A stretch of 40,054 nucleotides of DNA, from contig JACABB010000038.1 in the NCBI GenBank assembly GCA_013376985.1, positions 1 through 40,054 of the forward strand, given 5' to 3'. How positions within the stretch are numbered: position 1 is the stretch's first letter; each line of letters opens with the position of its first letter. The notes beneath the pieces are model-generated. The model saw only the letters and a program-made list of their open reading frames with translations. It was not told the origin of the DNA and searched no databases. Position numbers and translations under genes: made by a program. This document shows, piece after piece, positions 17,162 to 26,048 of the stretch. Source of the stretch: Bacteroidales bacterium (GTDB taxonomy: Bacteria; Bacteroidota; Bacteroidia; Bacteroidales; Tenuifilaceae).

Positions 17162-18061
17162 CTAAAACTCTTCAACATCACTAAAAAAAGTCTCATTTGC
17201 ATCAGAAGCAAAACCCTCAGAATGAGCATCAGATTCAGGAATTATAATTGTGAAACATGCTCCTTTCTCTATCTCGCTATCAACCTCTATTCGCCCTTTA
17301 AGCATATCAATTAAAGCCTTAGAAACAGATAATCCTAATCCATGTCCTCTATTTATAGAGTTAATTCCAGAATCAAGGCGATTGAAACGATCAAAAATTA
17401 TTGTATGATTTTCTTTTGAGATTCCAATACCATAATCCTTCACATATATTTTCAGATCATTTTCTGATACCCAAATTTTGATTTCAATTTGATTATCCTC
17501 AAAACTAAAGTTAATAGCATTCCGGATTAAATTTGAAAGTATAAGTTTTAATTTTTCAGGATCGGTTTTAAATACAAAACTTTTCGTTTTATCTAATCGT
17601 TCGTGGTGTTGAACTTTAAAAATCAGTTTTTTCTTCTTTGCCTCGTACTTAAATGCCTCTAAAACGCTATCGACTAGATTATTAATATCTACTGTGAAAA
17701 TTTCTGGGTAAATATCTCCAGCTTCGATCTTTGCAGCAACGAATATGTTACGAAACTGAAAATCGAGGCTAAAGGCTTCCTCATGAATAAGGGCAATCAT
17801 AGAGAAAACCCTTTTCCAATTCTCTTTATCAACAGAAAGAATTGCTTTGGATAATCCGAGAATTGATGTGAAAGGATTAATAATCTCGTTAGTTATGTTA
17901 GAAACAAAATGACTTTTTAGCGATTCTGACTCTTCAAGCTTTTTATTTACTTGAATTAACTCTTCGTTAAGGTTTTTTAAATCTTCGAGTGCTTTTTTAT
18001 TCTCCTCAAATCGCTGCTTAAGTTCAGCCAATAAATCACTGTCGGATAGTTGATTAGTCAT
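17162..18061 (-). CDS. Histidine-kinase homologue lacking the phospho-acceptor His
   Basis: A 299-residue soluble protein with an N-terminal coiled coil (about 10-50), a HisKA-like dimer helix (about 48-110) and a HATPase domain (about 150-275). The H-box reads SNITNEIINPFTSILG: aligned with the usual NMSHEIRTPL, Asn58 replaces the phosphorylated His and the following Arg-Thr is Ile-Asn. The ATP site looks intact: N-box NLIRNAINFS, G1 KDYGIGIS, G2 GHGLGLSVSKALIDM. It probably binds ATP but cannot autophosphorylate in the standard way. It lies between cheR and cheD with tight spacing. The tail ends FSDVEEF. A His-independent regulatory or scaffold role is inferred. Confidence 0.85.
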   Translation of the reverse strand: MTNQLSDSDLLAELKQRFEENKKALEDLKNLNEELIQVNKKLEESESLKSHFVSNITNEIINPFTSILGLSKAILSVDKENWKRVFSMIALIHEEAFSLDFQFRNIFVAAKIEAGDIYPEIFTVDINNLVDSVLEAFKYEAKKKKLIFKVQHHERLDKTKSFVFKTDPEKLKLILSNLIRNAINFSFEDNQIEIKIWVSENDLKIYVKDYGIGISKENHTIIFDRFNRLDSGINSINRGHGLGLSVSKALIDMLKGRIEVDSEIEKGACFTIIIPESDAHSEGFASDANETFFSDVEEF

Positions 18062-18999: not shown

Positions 19000-20274
19000 C
19001 TAAAAATTATATTGAACTACAATCAATAATCGGCCATTGCCTGTTATTTTGGAGTTTGAAACTTTACCTTTATTATTATTGTCTATAATACCATATGCTA
19101 CAGCAGTATATTCAAACTCGGTAGAAATCTGAAATTTATCTTTTATGTAGCTAAACGATGGCGAAAATCGGTACATATAATCAATATCCATTCCGCGACT
19201 ATAATACTTATCCTTTATAAAATTATCTGTTGTTCCAAGGTTTTTGGCATATCCAAAGAATAAACCTAACTGGTATTTTTCACCGTAAGTAATATTTCCG
19301 AACATAAATAGATGATTTGTTGGAGTATAGGTTTCTTTACCCGTTAAACTATCAAGACTACTAATGGCATAACCTCCAAGTAAAAGGTGTTCATAGAGAT
19401 TTTGCCCTAATATTCCTTTTACTCTTACTGCTAATTTTGTAGTTTGATATTTTATATAAAGCATGCTTGAGTATGAGTTTATTCGCTCATTAGTTACATA
19501 CTTTAGAGTTGGTGTCTTTATTGAGGTTGTAAAAAGCCTTGGCCGCAAGGTTTTGTAGTCAAAAGAACCTCCAATGGTAAAAGAGCCACTAGTTAATTGT
19601 AAATTGGCATTTAAATTCGGTTTTAGTCCATTTCTTAGATACGTGGTTGATGCATCATTTGGTCCTAAACTCCTACTGTCGCTCTGATATACTAAAGATA
19701 ATGAAAGCGATAATCCTTCAGTAAGTTTTTGCTTAAAAGTTAGCTGAGGGCTACGGTTAAAGCTCTGAAAAGGGGCTCCCGTATTTAAACTGATAACAGA
19801 GGGAAAAACATCTGTAACAAACATCGGATGCCATGTTAATCCAAAAAGCAATGAACTTTTTTCCCATTGCAACTTGGTATATGCATGACGAAGCCTTATG
19901 CTAACTAATGAATTAGTTCCTGATATATTATTAATTCCCGTAAAATCGCCCTCGAGGATGATTATAGATTTTGCTTTAAAAAGGCTTGGCATTGTTATAT
20001 TGGTCCTAATTCTGGAAGCCATTGCAAGAGCATTTATATTTGGAGCAGCCTGAATATCTGCCCCATTTGCATCCAACTCTGGTTTTTTGGGGTATAGCAA
20101 TAATATACCATCAACGGCATCAACTACTTGACGAGAATCATACCAGTAATCACCTCGAAAAAAGCCACTAAAATCAATCTTTATTTTTTCAATTTTAACT
20201 GAATCAACTGTACTGGCAAAAATATTTGAGCAAGAAAGAAGTAGAATACTCAAATAAAAAAAAAATCTTTTCAT
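19000..20274 (-). CDS. Outer-membrane beta-barrel protein within the che cluster
   Basis: I prefer the ATG at 20274, which gives a clean signal peptide MKRFFFYLSILLLSCSNIFA and a 424-residue protein; an in-frame ATG at 20304 adds ten residues. The mature protein alternates polar and hydrophobic residues in many short strands and ends in VVQYNF, the aromatic C-terminal signal for barrel insertion. It resembles DcaP-like or OprP-type porins in outline, but I cannot name its family with certainty. It lies between cheW (82 bp to the start) and cheR (31 bp), all leftward, so it is probably co-transcribed with them. Its role in sensing or uptake is unknown. Confidence 0.75.
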   Translation of the reverse strand: MKRFFFYLSILLLSCSNIFASTVDSVKIEKIKIDFSGFFRGDYWYDSRQVVDAVDGILLLYPKKPELDANGADIQAAPNINALAMASRIRTNITMPSLFKAKSIIILEGDFTGINNISGTNSLVSIRLRHAYTKLQWEKSSLLFGLTWHPMFVTDVFPSVISLNTGAPFQSFNRSPQLTFKQKLTEGLSLSLSLVYQSDSRSLGPNDASTTYLRNGLKPNLNANLQLTSGSFTIGGSFDYKTLRPRLFTTSIKTPTLKYVTNERINSYSSMLYIKYQTTKLAVRVKGILGQNLYEHLLLGGYAISSLDSLTGKETYTPTNHLFMFGNITYGEKYQLGLFFGYAKNLGTTDNFIKDKYYSRGMDIDYMYRFSPSFSYIKDKFQISTEFEYTAVAYGIIDNNNKGKVSNSKITGNGRLLIVVQYNF

Positions 20275-20386
20275 AAATTTATTTAGACGAATCGTGCTGA
20301 ACATAACTAATTTATTGTCTTTATTTTTCTGTTTAATTCTAATGGATGAAAAAGAAAACTTTCAAATAATGAATAGATTCGTTGTA

Positions 20387-20959: not shown

Positions 20960-23002
20960 TTAGTAGTTTTCGATTTTAGAAAATAGTTTAATTATTTTAT
21001 TGGTATCCAAAACTAGCGCAATAGATCCATCTCCTAGAATAGTTGCACCAGAAACCATCTCTTGTTTCTTATAATGCTTGCCAAGAGGCTTCAATACTGC
21101 CTGATATTCGCCAATTACGGTATCTACAATAAGACCTACTCTATTTTCCTCATAATTAATAACAATTACCTGTTCAATATCTTGTACTCCATCCGGTAGT
21201 CCAAATTCCCTACGAATGTTAAAAAAGGATACTTGTCTCCCTTCTAAAACTAAAACATTATTAAATGTTTCATAGATTTTTTTCCGCTCAACTGCAAATA
21301 TTTTATCAACGGAAGATAGTGGAATTACATAATGTGTCTCCTCAACCTTTATAAGTAATCCATCTATAATTGAAAGAGTAAGGGGTAGCTTAATTGTTAT
21401 AGTAGTTCCAACTCCCAATTCAGACTCAATTTCAACCTCTCCTCGAATATCGGCAATCTTCCGTTTCACAACATCCATTCCAACACCTCTACCCGATACA
21501 TCTGTTACTTTTTTAGCGGTTGAAAAACCTGGTATAAAAACGAGATCGAGTATTTCCTTTTTAGTAAATTTCTTATCGGGGGGTATAATACCTTTTGAGA
21601 CGGCCTTCTCTCTAATAATATCAGTATCAATACCTGCCCCATCATCTGAAATTAGAATATGAACATTTGCTCCTGAGTAGAATGCTTTGAGCGATATCTT
21701 TCCTTGTTTTGGTTTGCCCCTTTTGATACGCTCTTGTGCTTCCTCAATTCCATGATCCAAACTATTCCTAATAATGTGCATTAAGGGATCCGATAAACTT
21801 TCAATAATAGTTTTATCAAGCTCTGTATCTGCTCCCTCTGTTACAAATACTACATCTTTCTTTAGTTCGTTTGATAAATCTCGAACTAAGCGCTGAAAAC
21901 GGGTAAGCATATTCTCTATAGGAATAAGAACAATGCTAAACGCTGTATCCCTAAGTTGACGCGAAAGCTTTTGTACATTCTCTGAAATACCAGTTAAGCC
22001 TGGAATATTATTTTGTTCGGCAAATAAGGATAATCGAGCTTGTGTTGTAACTAATTCTGAAACCAAATTCATTAACGAGTCTAATTTTTCTGAAGAAACT
22101 CTAATGCTCGAAATTGATGTATCCTTTAATCCAACTTTATCTCTTTTTATTGTTGCCGCTTTGCTTTGGAGAAATCGCTTTTTTGCATCCTCAGCAATTT
22201 TTTGAACAGTTGCAAGCCCAATGTCTTTTTGAATTTTTGCAATTCGTGTAATTTCACTTACAAAATAATCATCATCCAATAAATTATCTTCTGCAATGCT
22301 TTGAATTTGAATGGTTGATTCCCCTTCTACAAAAATAAAAATGTCACTAATATCCGCATAATTGTGGTTTGTAACGAGTATAATCTCCCAGTAAGTATAG
22401 CATAATAGGGGATCTATTTCATTTAACAAAGGTATTTTGTTTAGGTGAACAAAAACTTTTGCGTTACCAAGTGAATGAATTTCATCAATTAAATAAAGAG
22501 GATTTGTGCCGTTTTTAAAAATTCCAATAGAAGGTATAAATCGAATGAAAAATGTTTTTTCTTCCTGTATTTCTTGAATGCTTACCTTACCTTGGTCCGA
22601 TTCATTGGAATTTTCAGAAACTGTTTCTACTTTGATTAACTTTGATACTCTTGAGACAAGCGCATTATGAAGTGTTAGAAAATCCGGATCATTATAGTTA
22701 TTCTCATCAAGAAGAAGTTTAAGATGATCAACTGATGATAAAGTAACATCCAATACTTCTCTCGTTAATTTTAACTTTTTGTTTCGAACGAGATCGTATA
22801 CTGTTTCAAGATCATGCGTATAATGATCAATAAGATCGAAACCAAACATACTACTATTCCCTTTTAGAGTATGCATTACTCGGAAAACTTGTTGAATCAG
22901 CCCAGGATCTTCAGGATTTTGTTCTAAAGCTAAAAGATTTTTTTCTAATCCTTCAATCAAATCGGTGGCTTCCTCTATGAATTTTTTCTTAAAGTTATCC
23001 AT
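20960..23002 (-). CDS. cheA: Chemotaxis histidine kinase CheA
   Basis: A 680-residue kinase that phosphorylates CheY and CheB in response to receptor state. P1/HPt is at about 1-110 with phospho-His44 in MHTLKGNSSMFG. A P2-like region (about 150-235) begins FFIRFIPSIGIFKNGTNPL. Dimerisation P3 is at about 300-365. The P4 ATPase has N-box HIIRNSLDHGIE (409-420), G1 DDGAGID and G2 GRGVGMDVV. P5, a CheW-like domain, fills about 545-680. All catalytic motifs look intact. CheY lies 8 bp upstream and cheW 51 bp downstream. Confidence 0.97.
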   Translation of the reverse strand: MDNFKKKFIEEATDLIEGLEKNLLALEQNPEDPGLIQQVFRVMHTLKGNSSMFGFDLIDHYTHDLETVYDLVRNKKLKLTREVLDVTLSSVDHLKLLLDENNYNDPDFLTLHNALVSRVSKLIKVETVSENSNESDQGKVSIQEIQEEKTFFIRFIPSIGIFKNGTNPLYLIDEIHSLGNAKVFVHLNKIPLLNEIDPLLCYTYWEIILVTNHNYADISDIFIFVEGESTIQIQSIAEDNLLDDDYFVSEITRIAKIQKDIGLATVQKIAEDAKKRFLQSKAATIKRDKVGLKDTSISSIRVSSEKLDSLMNLVSELVTTQARLSLFAEQNNIPGLTGISENVQKLSRQLRDTAFSIVLIPIENMLTRFQRLVRDLSNELKKDVVFVTEGADTELDKTIIESLSDPLMHIIRNSLDHGIEEAQERIKRGKPKQGKISLKAFYSGANVHILISDDGAGIDTDIIREKAVSKGIIPPDKKFTKKEILDLVFIPGFSTAKKVTDVSGRGVGMDVVKRKIADIRGEVEIESELGVGTTITIKLPLTLSIIDGLLIKVEETHYVIPLSSVDKIFAVERKKIYETFNNVLVLEGRQVSFFNIRREFGLPDGVQDIEQVIVINYEENRVGLIVDTVIGEYQAVLKPLGKHYKKQEMVSGATILGDGSIALVLDTNKIIKLFSKIENY

Positions 23003-23010
23003 ACCTTATT

Positions 23011-23376
23011 TTATCTAATTACCTTGTTTAGTGCTGCTATTAATTTAGCGGGAACAAATGGTTTAATAATCCAACCCGTAGCTCCAGCATCCTTTGCTTC
23101 CATTTTACGAGATGTTTGTGATTCCGTGGTAAGGAATAGTATTGGAATACGTTGGTATGTAGGCATCTTTCTAACCTCCTTAATAAGTTCTATACCATCC
23201 ATTTCTGGCATATGTAAATCTGTTATTATAAGATCAATTGATTTACCATCAAGGTACTTTAGAGCATCTTTACCATCAACTGCTACTAGTACATTATAAC
23301 CTTCGTTTTCAAGTGTAAAACTGACAACCTCGCGAATACTTTCTGAGTCATCAACTATTAGGATTGTTCTGGCCAT
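23011..23376 (-). CDS. cheY: CheY-type response regulator
   Basis: A 121-residue stand-alone receiver. The acid pair D9/D10, phospho-acceptor Asp53 (IITDLHMPEMDG), Thr83/Thr84 (FLTTES) and Lys105 (IIKPF) are present, and no output domain follows. Its position 8 bp before cheA makes it the likely main phospho-acceptor. In flagellated bacteria CheY-P binds FliM, but no flagellar gene is seen here, so the target is open. Confidence in the family is high, in the role as the principal CheY moderate. Confidence 0.94.
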   Translation of the reverse strand: MARTILIVDDSESIREVVSFTLENEGYNVLVAVDGKDALKYLDGKSIDLIITDLHMPEMDGIELIKEVRKMPTYQRIPILFLTTESQTSRKMEAKDAGATGWIIKPFVPAKLIAALNKVIR

Positions 23377-23391
23377 AATATTGTGATATAA

Positions 23392-23727
23392 TTATTTTTT
23401 ATTATTCAATAAATCAGCAAACCCATTATGTTCCAAAAGGTTTACATGTTCATCGGAAAGCGAAAGATTGAATGAAACTTCTTTTGACTTTCGCTCAACG
23501 GTCCACTTAAAAGAGTAAAGAAGCTGCAATGCTCCTAAATCAATATTTTCAACATCCTTAATTATAATATCAAAAGAATGGTACTTGTCCAAATTCTGTA
23601 TCATTAAATATTTAATACTTGGTATTTCATCAAGTGTTAAGGCTCCTGTCAGTAATATGGTCGCCTTCTTTTTTCCATCCTCGGTGGATGGGGTAACCTC
23701 ATAGGGTATTTTTTTTATTTTTTCCAT
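23392..23727 (-). CDS. STAS-domain protein of the che cluster
   Basis: A 111-residue single STAS domain, related to anti-sigma factor antagonists. The fold's core is seen in ATILLTGALTLDEIPSIKYL and IDLGALQLLYSFKW. The loop that normally reads D-S-S-G, with a phosphorylated Ser or Thr, reads D-L-G-A here, so control by serine phosphorylation is unlikely. STAS proteins next to cheA are known in several phyla, though their job is poorly defined. It starts 12 bp after the large coiled-coil gene and ends 15 bp before cheY. I infer a protein-protein adaptor. Confidence 0.85.
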   Translation of the reverse strand: MEKIKKIPYEVTPSTEDGKKKATILLTGALTLDEIPSIKYLMIQNLDKYHSFDIIIKDVENIDLGALQLLYSFKWTVERKSKEVSFNLSLSDEHVNLLEHNGFADLLNNKK

Positions 23728-23739
23728 ATCGTATGCAAA

Positions 23740-25563
23740 TTAAAAAAGCTCCACTTCATCAGAACTTCTTTTTGAGCTTTTATTCTCAATATCCTGATCA
23801 TCTATAATTAAGTCATTACCTTCCTTAGATATAACGCTATTGTGGATCATATGCTCTGTCTCCATAGTATACAAACGCTTAATAGAATTGAGGGTTTCAT
23901 CCCTTTGTGATTTATCAAAATCGACACCTATTAATTTTTGATATATTTCCTTGAGTTCAACTATAATTTTTGAAATTGTTTTTTCAAATAAATCGTAGTA
24001 CCGAATTTGTTTAATTGATTCTTTTATCTCCGAAATTGTACTATTACTATGTTTGATATTCTCGTTAAGAAGTTGGCTTATTCTGTTACTTTTTATTTGA
24101 AGCTGACTCAGTATTGAATTAATGCCTTCGGTAGCATTATTTATAGTTTGGTTCTTCCCAAGGGATTCAATAAACAGTTTTACTTCCACTGTAAGCTCAT
24201 TCTCATTTACTAAAATTTGAGACATTATCATTTGAATTGTATTCTCAAATAGTTGTATATCATCAAATACTCCTTTAATCTGTAAAATTGTATCTTTTAA
24301 TGCAGCATACTCTTCTGATTTATGAGAAAAGTGTGAAAGTATACTTTCCGTAACCTTACTAAGCCTATTACTTGAATCAGTTAAACTATTAATACTTTTT
24401 GCTGATTGAGAAAGAAGTGAGTTAAGGTTTCCTATTTGAAATAGCTGATCTTTATTTGTCCCAATGAAATATGAAAATACTTGCTCTGAATTAGATAACC
24501 TTTGAAGTATTCTTGTTAGGTGAATTTCATCGGAGCTATCAGTAGTATTATTCAATCGTTTACAAATATCAGTAATGCTAAACATCTCATTACCTATCTC
24601 AAGAAAGTTTTCTGTTATCTTCTCAATTGCAAGCTGATACTCCTTATTAGCTTTCACAAGTATTGCTGCCTGTAAACCAGAAATATCTTTTATTTTTTGG
24701 TAAAGTTGTGATTGATTTATTTCATTAGCAGTACTCTCTTTTTGAAGTAGATCAAATTCCTTGAGGATAATTTTATGACTCTGTTGTATATGCTCAATCT
24801 TTTGTCGAATTATGTCTTGATATTGTAGATTTGTAATAATATCAGCAATATATTCTGAATTCTTATCCGTTTTTGTGGTTAATTCAGGAATTTGATGCTT
24901 TACTTCTTCATGCTTTTCGGCAAAAAAAACTATTGCGTAGTGAATATTGTTTATAATTGAATCTAAATCAATGGCTTTACTTATCAATACGGATTCAAAA
25001 CCCTTAATAGTGACAATAATTTCTGTTTCTAAACTAAGAATAAGTTTTTCACAATTAATGCATCTTTCATGATATTCATCAATAATCAAATTATTCTCTT
25101 TGATAACATTGATCCACTTTTTTTCTATCTGTGTTGAAAATTTGGAATCGCTGAAGGTTAAATTCGCAAGTAAAAATTTTAATGTCGAAAGATTTTGCTT
25201 TAGGTTTTTGATTGGAATAAAAAACTGATCGAGTAGCGTTTGAACATTCTTAAGACTTTTGGTGCTTTTATTAAGATGAAGGCTAAATTGACTTTGTATT
25301 TTACTCAAATCTTTATACAGCGACTGAAGCTCATTAAACAAATTTCTATTGCTTATTTCAGATAAAGATCTGAAAATTTCATGGGCATTATCAGATATTC
25401 CTTTCGCTTGATTATAAAAAATTTTAAAATTAGAATTCAGACCCAAAAAATCATCCGATGAACATTTATGAAGATCGATAATCTGCTCATCGATAGTCAT
25501 TAATATTGATGAGATTTCCTTAATAACTAAATCATTTAACAATATAGAATTTTTTTTAATCAT
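23740..25563 (-). CDS. Large helical protein with CheZ-like motifs
   Basis: I choose the ATG at 25563 (MIKKNSILLNDLVIKE), giving 607 residues; a TTG at 25578 would add five. There is no signal peptide or membrane segment, and the protein is predicted to be almost entirely long amphipathic helices. Counting from the TTG start, NLQYQDIIRQKIEHIQQ (250-266) and KQIRYYDLFEKTISKII (523-539) both resemble the CheZ active-site helix FQDLTGQVI, with acidic Asp255 and Asp529 placed like the catalytic Asp. The C-terminus SSDEVELF recalls the acidic CheY-binding tail of CheZ. It sits between a receiver gene and STAS-cheY-cheA. Family not recognised; a CheY-P phosphatase or array scaffold role is inferred. 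Confidence 0.75.
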   Translation of the reverse strand: MIKKNSILLNDLVIKEISSILMTIDEQIIDLHKCSSDDFLGLNSNFKIFYNQAKGISDNAHEIFRSLSEISNRNLFNELQSLYKDLSKIQSQFSLHLNKSTKSLKNVQTLLDQFFIPIKNLKQNLSTLKFLLANLTFSDSKFSTQIEKKWINVIKENNLIIDEYHERCINCEKLILSLETEIIVTIKGFESVLISKAIDLDSIINNIHYAIVFFAEKHEEVKHQIPELTTKTDKNSEYIADIITNLQYQDIIRQKIEHIQQSHKIILKEFDLLQKESTANEINQSQLYQKIKDISGLQAAILVKANKEYQLAIEKITENFLEIGNEMFSITDICKRLNNTTDSSDEIHLTRILQRLSNSEQVFSYFIGTNKDQLFQIGNLNSLLSQSAKSINSLTDSSNRLSKVTESILSHFSHKSEEYAALKDTILQIKGVFDDIQLFENTIQMIMSQILVNENELTVEVKLFIESLGKNQTINNATEGINSILSQLQIKSNRISQLLNENIKHSNSTISEIKESIKQIRYYDLFEKTISKIIVELKEIYQKLIGVDFDKSQRDETLNSIKRLYTMETEHMIHNSVISKEGNDLIIDDQDIENKSSKRSSDEVELF

Positions 25564-25670
25564 TATTATATGTACCAAATAAAAAATAGTAAATTTAATA
25601 AATTACCGGTTGTTAGCAGTTTATAGAAAATACTCTACTCTCTTGATAAAATTAATTGTAAACACAAATT

Positions 25671-26048
25671 TTATAGTAAATACTCCTTAAATTTTGAAAG
25701 AAATATAGGAATATCAATTGGTTTTGCAAAAAAATCAGCAGCACCCAACCTCTTACACATTTCAATATTTTCTTTAGTGCTTACAGCAGATACAACAACT
25801 ACAGGTATTTCCGATGTGGATAGGTTGGATTTTAATTTTTCTAAAATTTCAAAACCGCTCACCTGAGGCATAAGTAAATCTAAAAGGATAAGATCGGGTT
25901 TTTTGCGTTCAATAATTGTAAAAGCTTCCTTTGCACTTAAAGCAACATCGGTATTATAACCTTCTTCTTGAAGAATTGCTTCTAACAAAACAAGGTTCGT
26001 TGTAGAATCATCTACAATTAGTATTGAAGCTAAACTATTCTTATCCAT
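25671..26048 (-). CDS. Response regulator, receiver domain only
   Basis: A 125-residue receiver with acidic residues D13/D14, phospho-acceptor Asp57 (LILLDLLMPQVSG), Ser (VVSAVS) and Lys (AKPID). No output domain follows. It is the first gene of the leftward che cluster, about 107 bp before the helical CheZ-like protein. It differs clearly from the CheY next to cheA, for example in the LLMPQVSGFEIL segment. Possibly a phosphate sink or second output regulator; that is an inference. Confidence 0.9.
   Translation of the reverse strand: MDKNSLASILIVDDSTTNLVLLEAILQEEGYNTDVALSAKEAFTIIERKKPDLILLDLLMPQVSGFEILEKLKSNLSTSEIPVVVVSAVSTKENIEMCKRLGAADFFAKPIDIPIFLSKFKEYLL

Follow-up and report, generated by a model that had tools for sequence, protein, structure and literature searches.

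What switches CheY off in a bacterial order that has the kinase CheA but in which CheZ does not exceed its detection cut-off? In the Bacteroidales, CheA was present in 57 of 188 sampled genomes, but none of the order's 295 sampled genomes had a CheZ match (PF04344) over the family cut-off, a single weak match falling short of it; across a sample of the phylum, 48 of 395 genomes had CheZ over cut-off. The genome studied here, a 5.26-Mb assembly of 85 contigs from the family Tenuifilaceae, contains no CheZ over cut-off. We analysed a 40,054-nt stretch of it (hereafter the window), the minus strand of which carries a chemosensory cluster in the order receiver, DxxxQ gene, STAS-like gene, CheY, CheA, CheW, porin-like gene, CheR, histidine kinase, CheD and CheB. 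A preliminary description of the window had proposed that the DxxxQ gene encodes a CheY-P phosphatase or scaffold of ~607 residues, and the open reading frame, both of the peptides quoted there and a tail ending in DEVELF are all present (Table 1). This protein is our candidate for CheY switch-off in the order, with Asp250 and Gln254 as the residues concerned.

Table 1. Features discussed in the text, in window coordinates unless a locus is named
Feature	Position	Strand	Remarks
DxxxQ protein gene	23740..25563	minus	607 aa plus stop; ATG at 25563, stop codon 23740-23742
Motif 1, residues 247-258, QYQDIIRQKIEH	24790..24825	minus	Putative phosphatase active site (Asp250, Gln254)
Residues 298-316, QAAILVKANKEYQLAIEKI	24616..24672	minus	On the helix after the motif 1 helix; holds the second most conserved block (300-314)
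Motif 2, residues 522-534, YYDLFEKTISKII	23962..24000	minus	Second-repeat equivalent of motif 1, degenerate
Residues 565-574, YTMETEHMIH	23842..23871	minus	Conserved block; YTMxSERxxH-like form in distant homologues
C-terminal tail, DEVELF	23743..23760	minus	Proposed CheY (or CheR) docking peptide
STAS-like protein	23392..23727	minus	Between CheY and the DxxxQ gene; window copy weak (STAS_2, E = 0.27)
CheY	23011..23376	minus	Canonical receiver, presumed substrate; site Asp, Thr and Lys align with those of E. coli CheY
CheA kinase	20960..23002	minus	Pfam scan
Second single-domain receiver	25671..26048	minus	Just upstream of the DxxxQ gene; possible alternative substrate
CheX/CheC-like protein	L051:6857-7459 = G000:C78:56856-57458		Flanked by a single receiver and a histidine kinase, outside the che cluster

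The protein had no significant match in Pfam or NCBIfam. It was not over the cut-off of PF04344, the CheC/CheX families (PF04509 and PF13690) were not listed for it at E ≤ 10, and the chemoreceptor signalling domain MCPsignal (PF00015) was not found in it; neither CheZ nor MCPsignal was among the 25 commonest families of 21 members. An alternative TTG start at 25578, five codons upstream of the ATG, would give 612 residues; we number from the ATG, so that Asp255 and Asp529 of the preliminary description become Asp250 and Asp524.

The gene is part of a conserved CheA-CheY-STAS-DxxxQ operon. Of 21 loci (17 double-unit loci together with L058, L097, L098 and L177; L178 was left out of the tally), 20 had CheY-type and CheA genes on the same strand as the DxxxQ gene and no more than 2 kb away from it, two proteobacteria being among the 20, and in Methylosinus sp. 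C49 cheA lies ~7.5 kb upstream of the DxxxQ gene in the same cluster. A STAS family was over cut-off in two of the seven scanned counterparts of the STAS-like protein (L062 and L064). The gene in the cheW/cheR interval (19000-20304, minus strand) has no Pfam match and looks porin-like by eye; its BLAST counterparts occurred in L062 and L066, and none was found in the other syntenic stretches compared. All 32 strong carriers in the 188-genome sample were among the 57 genomes with CheA, which favours the phosphatase reading given below; 25 of the 57 had no strong match to the family, which counts against it. The other 11 of the 43 strong carriers, absent from the CheA list, presumably lay outside the 188.

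Motif 1 (QYQDIIRQK) is the most conserved part of the protein. Gln247, Asp250, Gln254 and His258 were each found in all 61 homologues (61/61), and residues 242-256 formed the lowest-entropy 15-residue window of a 21-sequence alignment (0.19 bits vs a mean of 1.91). The 61 homologues come from 60 genomes, 21 of the protein's own family and 39 others, which include every one of the 43 genomes reaching E ≤ 1e-8 in the 295-genome order sample plus 17 more of its own family; the order search gave 46 matches, three of which (G541, G603 and G663), weak and off the motif, were left out of the count. Among same-family genomes, 22 of 27 had a match, its own genome counted. Alignment A1 was made without L022/L025 (one homologue over two frames), L026 (the same gene as L023), L027 (weak) and L001/L002 (the same genes as L005/L006). 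In G019, whose genome is a single contig, the homologue (L061:8802-10438) is divided between two frames of 408 and 148 aa.

When the protein was shuffled 5000 times, five of the shuffled sequences contained the strict pattern Q[FYVIM][QH]D[ILVMR]xxQ, and the window's other open frames of at least 100 aa all lacked it. An Asp at position i with a Gln at i+4 is the phosphatase motif of CheZ, given as DXXXQ in PMC7750401, where the Azorhizobium residues D165 and Q169 are termed critical. Judged by its sequence, motif 1 is a real CheZ-type DxxxQ site, beyond chance.

The preliminary description had counted two CheZ-like motifs and had named a lack of conservation in homologues as refuting, and by that condition the two differ: homologues keep both the Asp and the Gln of motif 1, but they do not keep those of motif 2 (YYDLFEK). 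Position 524 is Asp in 38/61 homologues and Glu in 13, and the +4 position, 528, is Lys in 32/61 and Gln in only 6/61, so that two active motifs are rejected and motif 2 is not taken as a second active site. As a CheZ motif it does not exceed chance: of 5000 shuffles, 868 contained one or more matches to a loose pattern that admits it.

The idea of an internal duplication fared better. When the two halves of the distant, double-unit relatives were aligned, they matched clearly (Prob 96, E = 4.9e-9 over 229 columns, hhalign E-values here and below being those of a single pair), above 100 of 100 shuffles and with a score of 68.6 vs 33.4 for a reversed half. In the window family itself the signal was weak (Prob 13, score 30.3, as compared with 25.9 for the reversed half and 22.3 for the best of 100 shuffles), but hhalign placed motif 1 on motif 2. 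On these half-to-half alignments the duplication holds, its second site being dead by the conservation counts above.

The acidic tail with a terminal Phe, also singled out from the start, is conserved. Phe607 occurs in 61/61 homologues and Glu605 in 60/61, and the protein ends exactly in [LF]F in 60/61, the remaining one (L147) having a Glu after it. Similar ends occur elsewhere: those of the cluster's histidine kinase (17162-18061), such as DVEEF, DFDKF and DTEIF, and those of chemoreceptors in L054, L055 and L066, such as DFEKF and AFEKY, resemble one another and DEVELF. These ends may possibly serve CheR or CheY as a common docking peptide.

We compared the family with an 86-residue CheZ core, derived from 31 CheZ sequences (E. 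coli, 28 Bacteroidota loci, L032 and L034); the Bacteroidota set comprised 28 of 30 loci, L113 and L114 being left out because no open reading frame was called in them. The profile-profile search that the preliminary description had called for gave a divided answer. The window family aligned with the core in register (Prob 49.8, E = 1.7e-4), and the double-unit set did so more strongly (Prob 92.5, E = 5e-7), with the Asp and the Gln each opposite its counterpart; the window family was out of register with the whole CheZ alignment (Prob 31.7). The core match may be slightly favoured, because L032 and L034 had entered through the family's own search. In controls with the two queries, the reversed CheZ core scored 19.9 and 14.7, and the best of 300 column shuffles per query scored 22.1 and 21.7, outliers aside, as compared with 34.4 and 50.0 for the true core. 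One shuffle per query scored higher, at an implausible ~135; one of these two was inspected, and its alignment covers 12 columns.

Structure prediction of the monomer, also proposed at the outset, yielded no match to a CheZ-like fold. A full-length AlphaFold model (three sequences) was all helix with a pLDDT of 62.5 and helices at 144-275 and 281-338 around motif 1, and a model of the fragment 100-345 had a pLDDT of 62.7, rising to 74-80 in ten-residue blocks over 230-269, with helices at 200-276 and 281-338. With Foldseek, neither model matched a PDB entry at E ≤ 0.001; the matches listed were mostly generic helical proteins, with no CheZ among the 50 listed for each model. As the models are poor and no CheZ fold was matched, the fold speaks neither for nor against CheZ. 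If the two helices do form a hairpin turning near residue 278, residue 250 would lie opposite ~306, within the conserved block 300-314. A search of PDB sequences with the family profile had as its best matches chemoreceptors and designed coiled coils at 326-506, off the motif, which may reflect composition.

The protein's relatives point to chemoreceptors. The family profile matched 15 of 395 genomes of the phylum sample, its own included, nine of them over the motif and six only in coiled-coil parts. The motif-matching relatives include proteins of ~600 aa, 455-461 aa and 218-224 aa. All four of the ~600-aa relatives scanned (L028-L031) matched MCPsignal (E = 5e-11 to 3e-15), and the short relatives matched CheZ, L032 over the cut-off (E = 1.8e-7) and L034 slightly below it (E = 2.3e-6). 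When one 600-aa protein was searched against plasmid records, three were found, in Methylosinus sp. C49, Treponema and Methylobacterium; the Methylosinus sp. C49 match covered 93% and is annotated 'hypothetical protein'. The Methylobacterium protein in turn found 60 records, and most of the 25 matches listed cover only its MCP part; those of Sphaerotilus and Methylosinus trichosporium extend as far as its end and bear the annotation 'methyl-accepting chemotaxis protein'. The four proteobacterial relatives carry QFQDINRQ, QFQDIVRQ, QFQDVVRQ or QIGDNTRQ, and end in IELF in three cases and in DDILFA in Methylosinus sp. C49. MCPsignal was over cut-off in the three single-unit proteobacterial proteins and not in that of Methylosinus sp. 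C49 (E = 0.09). In hhalign, the window family aligned with the double-unit MCP-type set (six sequences) over 573 columns (Prob 99.9, E = 1.3e-34), and the double-unit set with the single-unit set (five sequences; Prob 98.9, E = 4e-17). By profile homology, the DxxxQ motif, the che neighbourhood and an [IV]E[LF]F-type end, the window protein belongs to an unnamed family of MCP-like DxxxQ proteins.

We consider the DxxxQ protein a likely CheY-P phosphatase with a CheZ-like mechanism and one active site. In CheZ, the Gln orients the attacking water, and the Asp forms a pair with the Lys in the active site of CheY. By analogy, the first repeat would be the enzyme: Gln254 and Asp250, placed on a long helical hairpin, would reach into the CheY site, the former orienting the water and the latter pairing with the Lys, while the E[LF]F tail would capture CheY-P. 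The protein would have arisen by tandem duplication of an MCP-like helical hairpin with its DxxxQ helix, and the second repeat, its site lost, probably stands in for the partner subunit, making a pseudo-dimer.

The same features can also be read as those of a scaffold or an adaptor. The protein would then be a coiled coil of MCP origin keeping CheY, the STAS protein, CheA and CheR near the array, and the DxxxQ a non-catalytic binding surface. The MCP-type relatives, the long helices of both models and the conserved blocks beyond DxxxQ would fit such a role, as would the E[LF]F end, which recalls the CheR-binding pentapeptides of receptors; the invariant Gln247 and His258 beside the Asp and Gln could also reflect a binding interface. 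However, an Asp and a Gln spaced i, i+4 in all 61 homologues, in the register of the CheZ core, are what catalysis predicts, and MCPsignal was not detected in the window protein. We regard the scaffold as unlikely.

The protein could also have another main target than CheY, namely the receiver encoded next to it, and be a phosphate-sink regulator. Nine of the 17 double-unit loci, the window counted, have a counterpart of this receiver ~110 bases or less from the DxxxQ gene, but at the other eight the open frames within 4 kb include none whose best match in the window is that receiver, and CheY is still present; this makes the neighbouring receiver a rather improbable main target, and CheY the preferred one.

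The claim that no other phosphatase is seen stands for the cluster, where Pfam scans of 20 window genes (E ≤ 0.001) found no CheZ, CheC or CheX, but not for the genome, which encodes a CheX/CheC-like protein of 200 aa elsewhere (E = 1.8e-6, over cut-off). In addition, the histidine kinase of the cluster (17162-18061, minus strand) has an H-box reading NEIINP, in which the His is replaced by Asn and the Glu and the +4 Asn, the phosphatase position of HisKA kinases, are kept. From these residues it is probably kinase-dead, and it may be a phosphatase or a regulator. The CheX-like protein and this His-less kinase are candidates for other phosphatases and to that extent weaken the DxxxQ-phosphatase reading. 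That the kinase is the phosphatase of the cluster, with the DxxxQ protein only modulating it, would agree with the identical NEIINP in the eight syntenic homologues compared (>50% identity) and with a HisKA match below cut-off (E = 0.0013) beside a strong HATPase, but is very improbable given that L052, L053 and L054 keep CheY, CheA and the DxxxQ gene, the kinase being unmatched within the limited stretches compared.

A CheZ-like DxxxQ phosphatase would here reset the CheY of a system with a probably non-flagellar output, since the genome encodes GldM (E = 6.1e-46), of the gliding/type IX machinery, and has no FliG over cut-off. The finding ties proteins of chemoreceptor type to phosphatases of the CheZ type, and suggests that, within che operons, some genes labelled 'methyl-accepting chemotaxis protein' may encode enzymes, not receptors. 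In the literature searched, the coverage of which leaves subscription journals mostly outside, we recognised no paper on the family. A wider reading, which we offer tentatively and hold to be doubtful, is that of an unnamed, cross-phylum CheY-P phosphatase family made from chemoreceptors, in which MCP hairpins bear a DxxxQ helix of CheZ type and the chain ends in [IV]ELF; its Bacteroidales branch would be a tandem repeat without receptor tips, a soluble monomeric pseudo-dimer with one live and one dead site, and CheZ itself may share this origin.

Among known systems, CheZ (PF04344) shares with the window protein the DxxxQ motif, an acidic C-terminal tail and a cheY neighbour, and 25 of the 28 Bacteroidota CheZ carry LQxQDxxxQ, very close to the NLQYQDIIRQ of the window. 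However, E. coli CheZ has 214 residues and dimerises, whereas the window protein has 607 and a tandem repeat with one site; the window protein also has MCP-type relatives and no Pfam match. The tails also differ, being ID[x][LM]F in 23/28 Bacteroidota CheZ and E[LF]F in the window family. Two of these CheZ, L105 and L108, contain five and four SQDEID[x]LF peptides, respectively, in tandem at the C-terminus in L105, which look in sequence as if they were repeated CheY-docking motifs. CheC, CheX and FliY are likewise CheY-P phosphatases other than CheZ, and differ in fold and motif.

The MCP-like DxxxQ proteins of Alpha- and Betaproteobacteria and of other Bacteroidota share with the window protein Q-x-x-D-x-x-R-Q, a cheA/cheY neighbourhood and, in most, an [IV]ELF-type end, and the double-unit ones are homologous to it over nearly the full length. 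They differ in that 9 of the 10 scanned were over the MCPsignal cut-off, for which the window protein has no match, and the single-unit ones have one repeat and, in some, an N-terminal hydrophobic stretch visible by eye. CheT of Sinorhizobium meliloti offers a further parallel: as described in PMC12654446, it is a DXXXQ protein, not significantly similar to any known chemotaxis protein, which resembles CheZ in predicted structure, forms a complex with CheR and enhances the dephosphorylation of one CheY, and its cluster also encodes the STAS protein CheS, which binds CheA. By this description, and as a parallel only, both the CheT cluster and the operon in the window combine a DXXXQ protein with a STAS neighbour.
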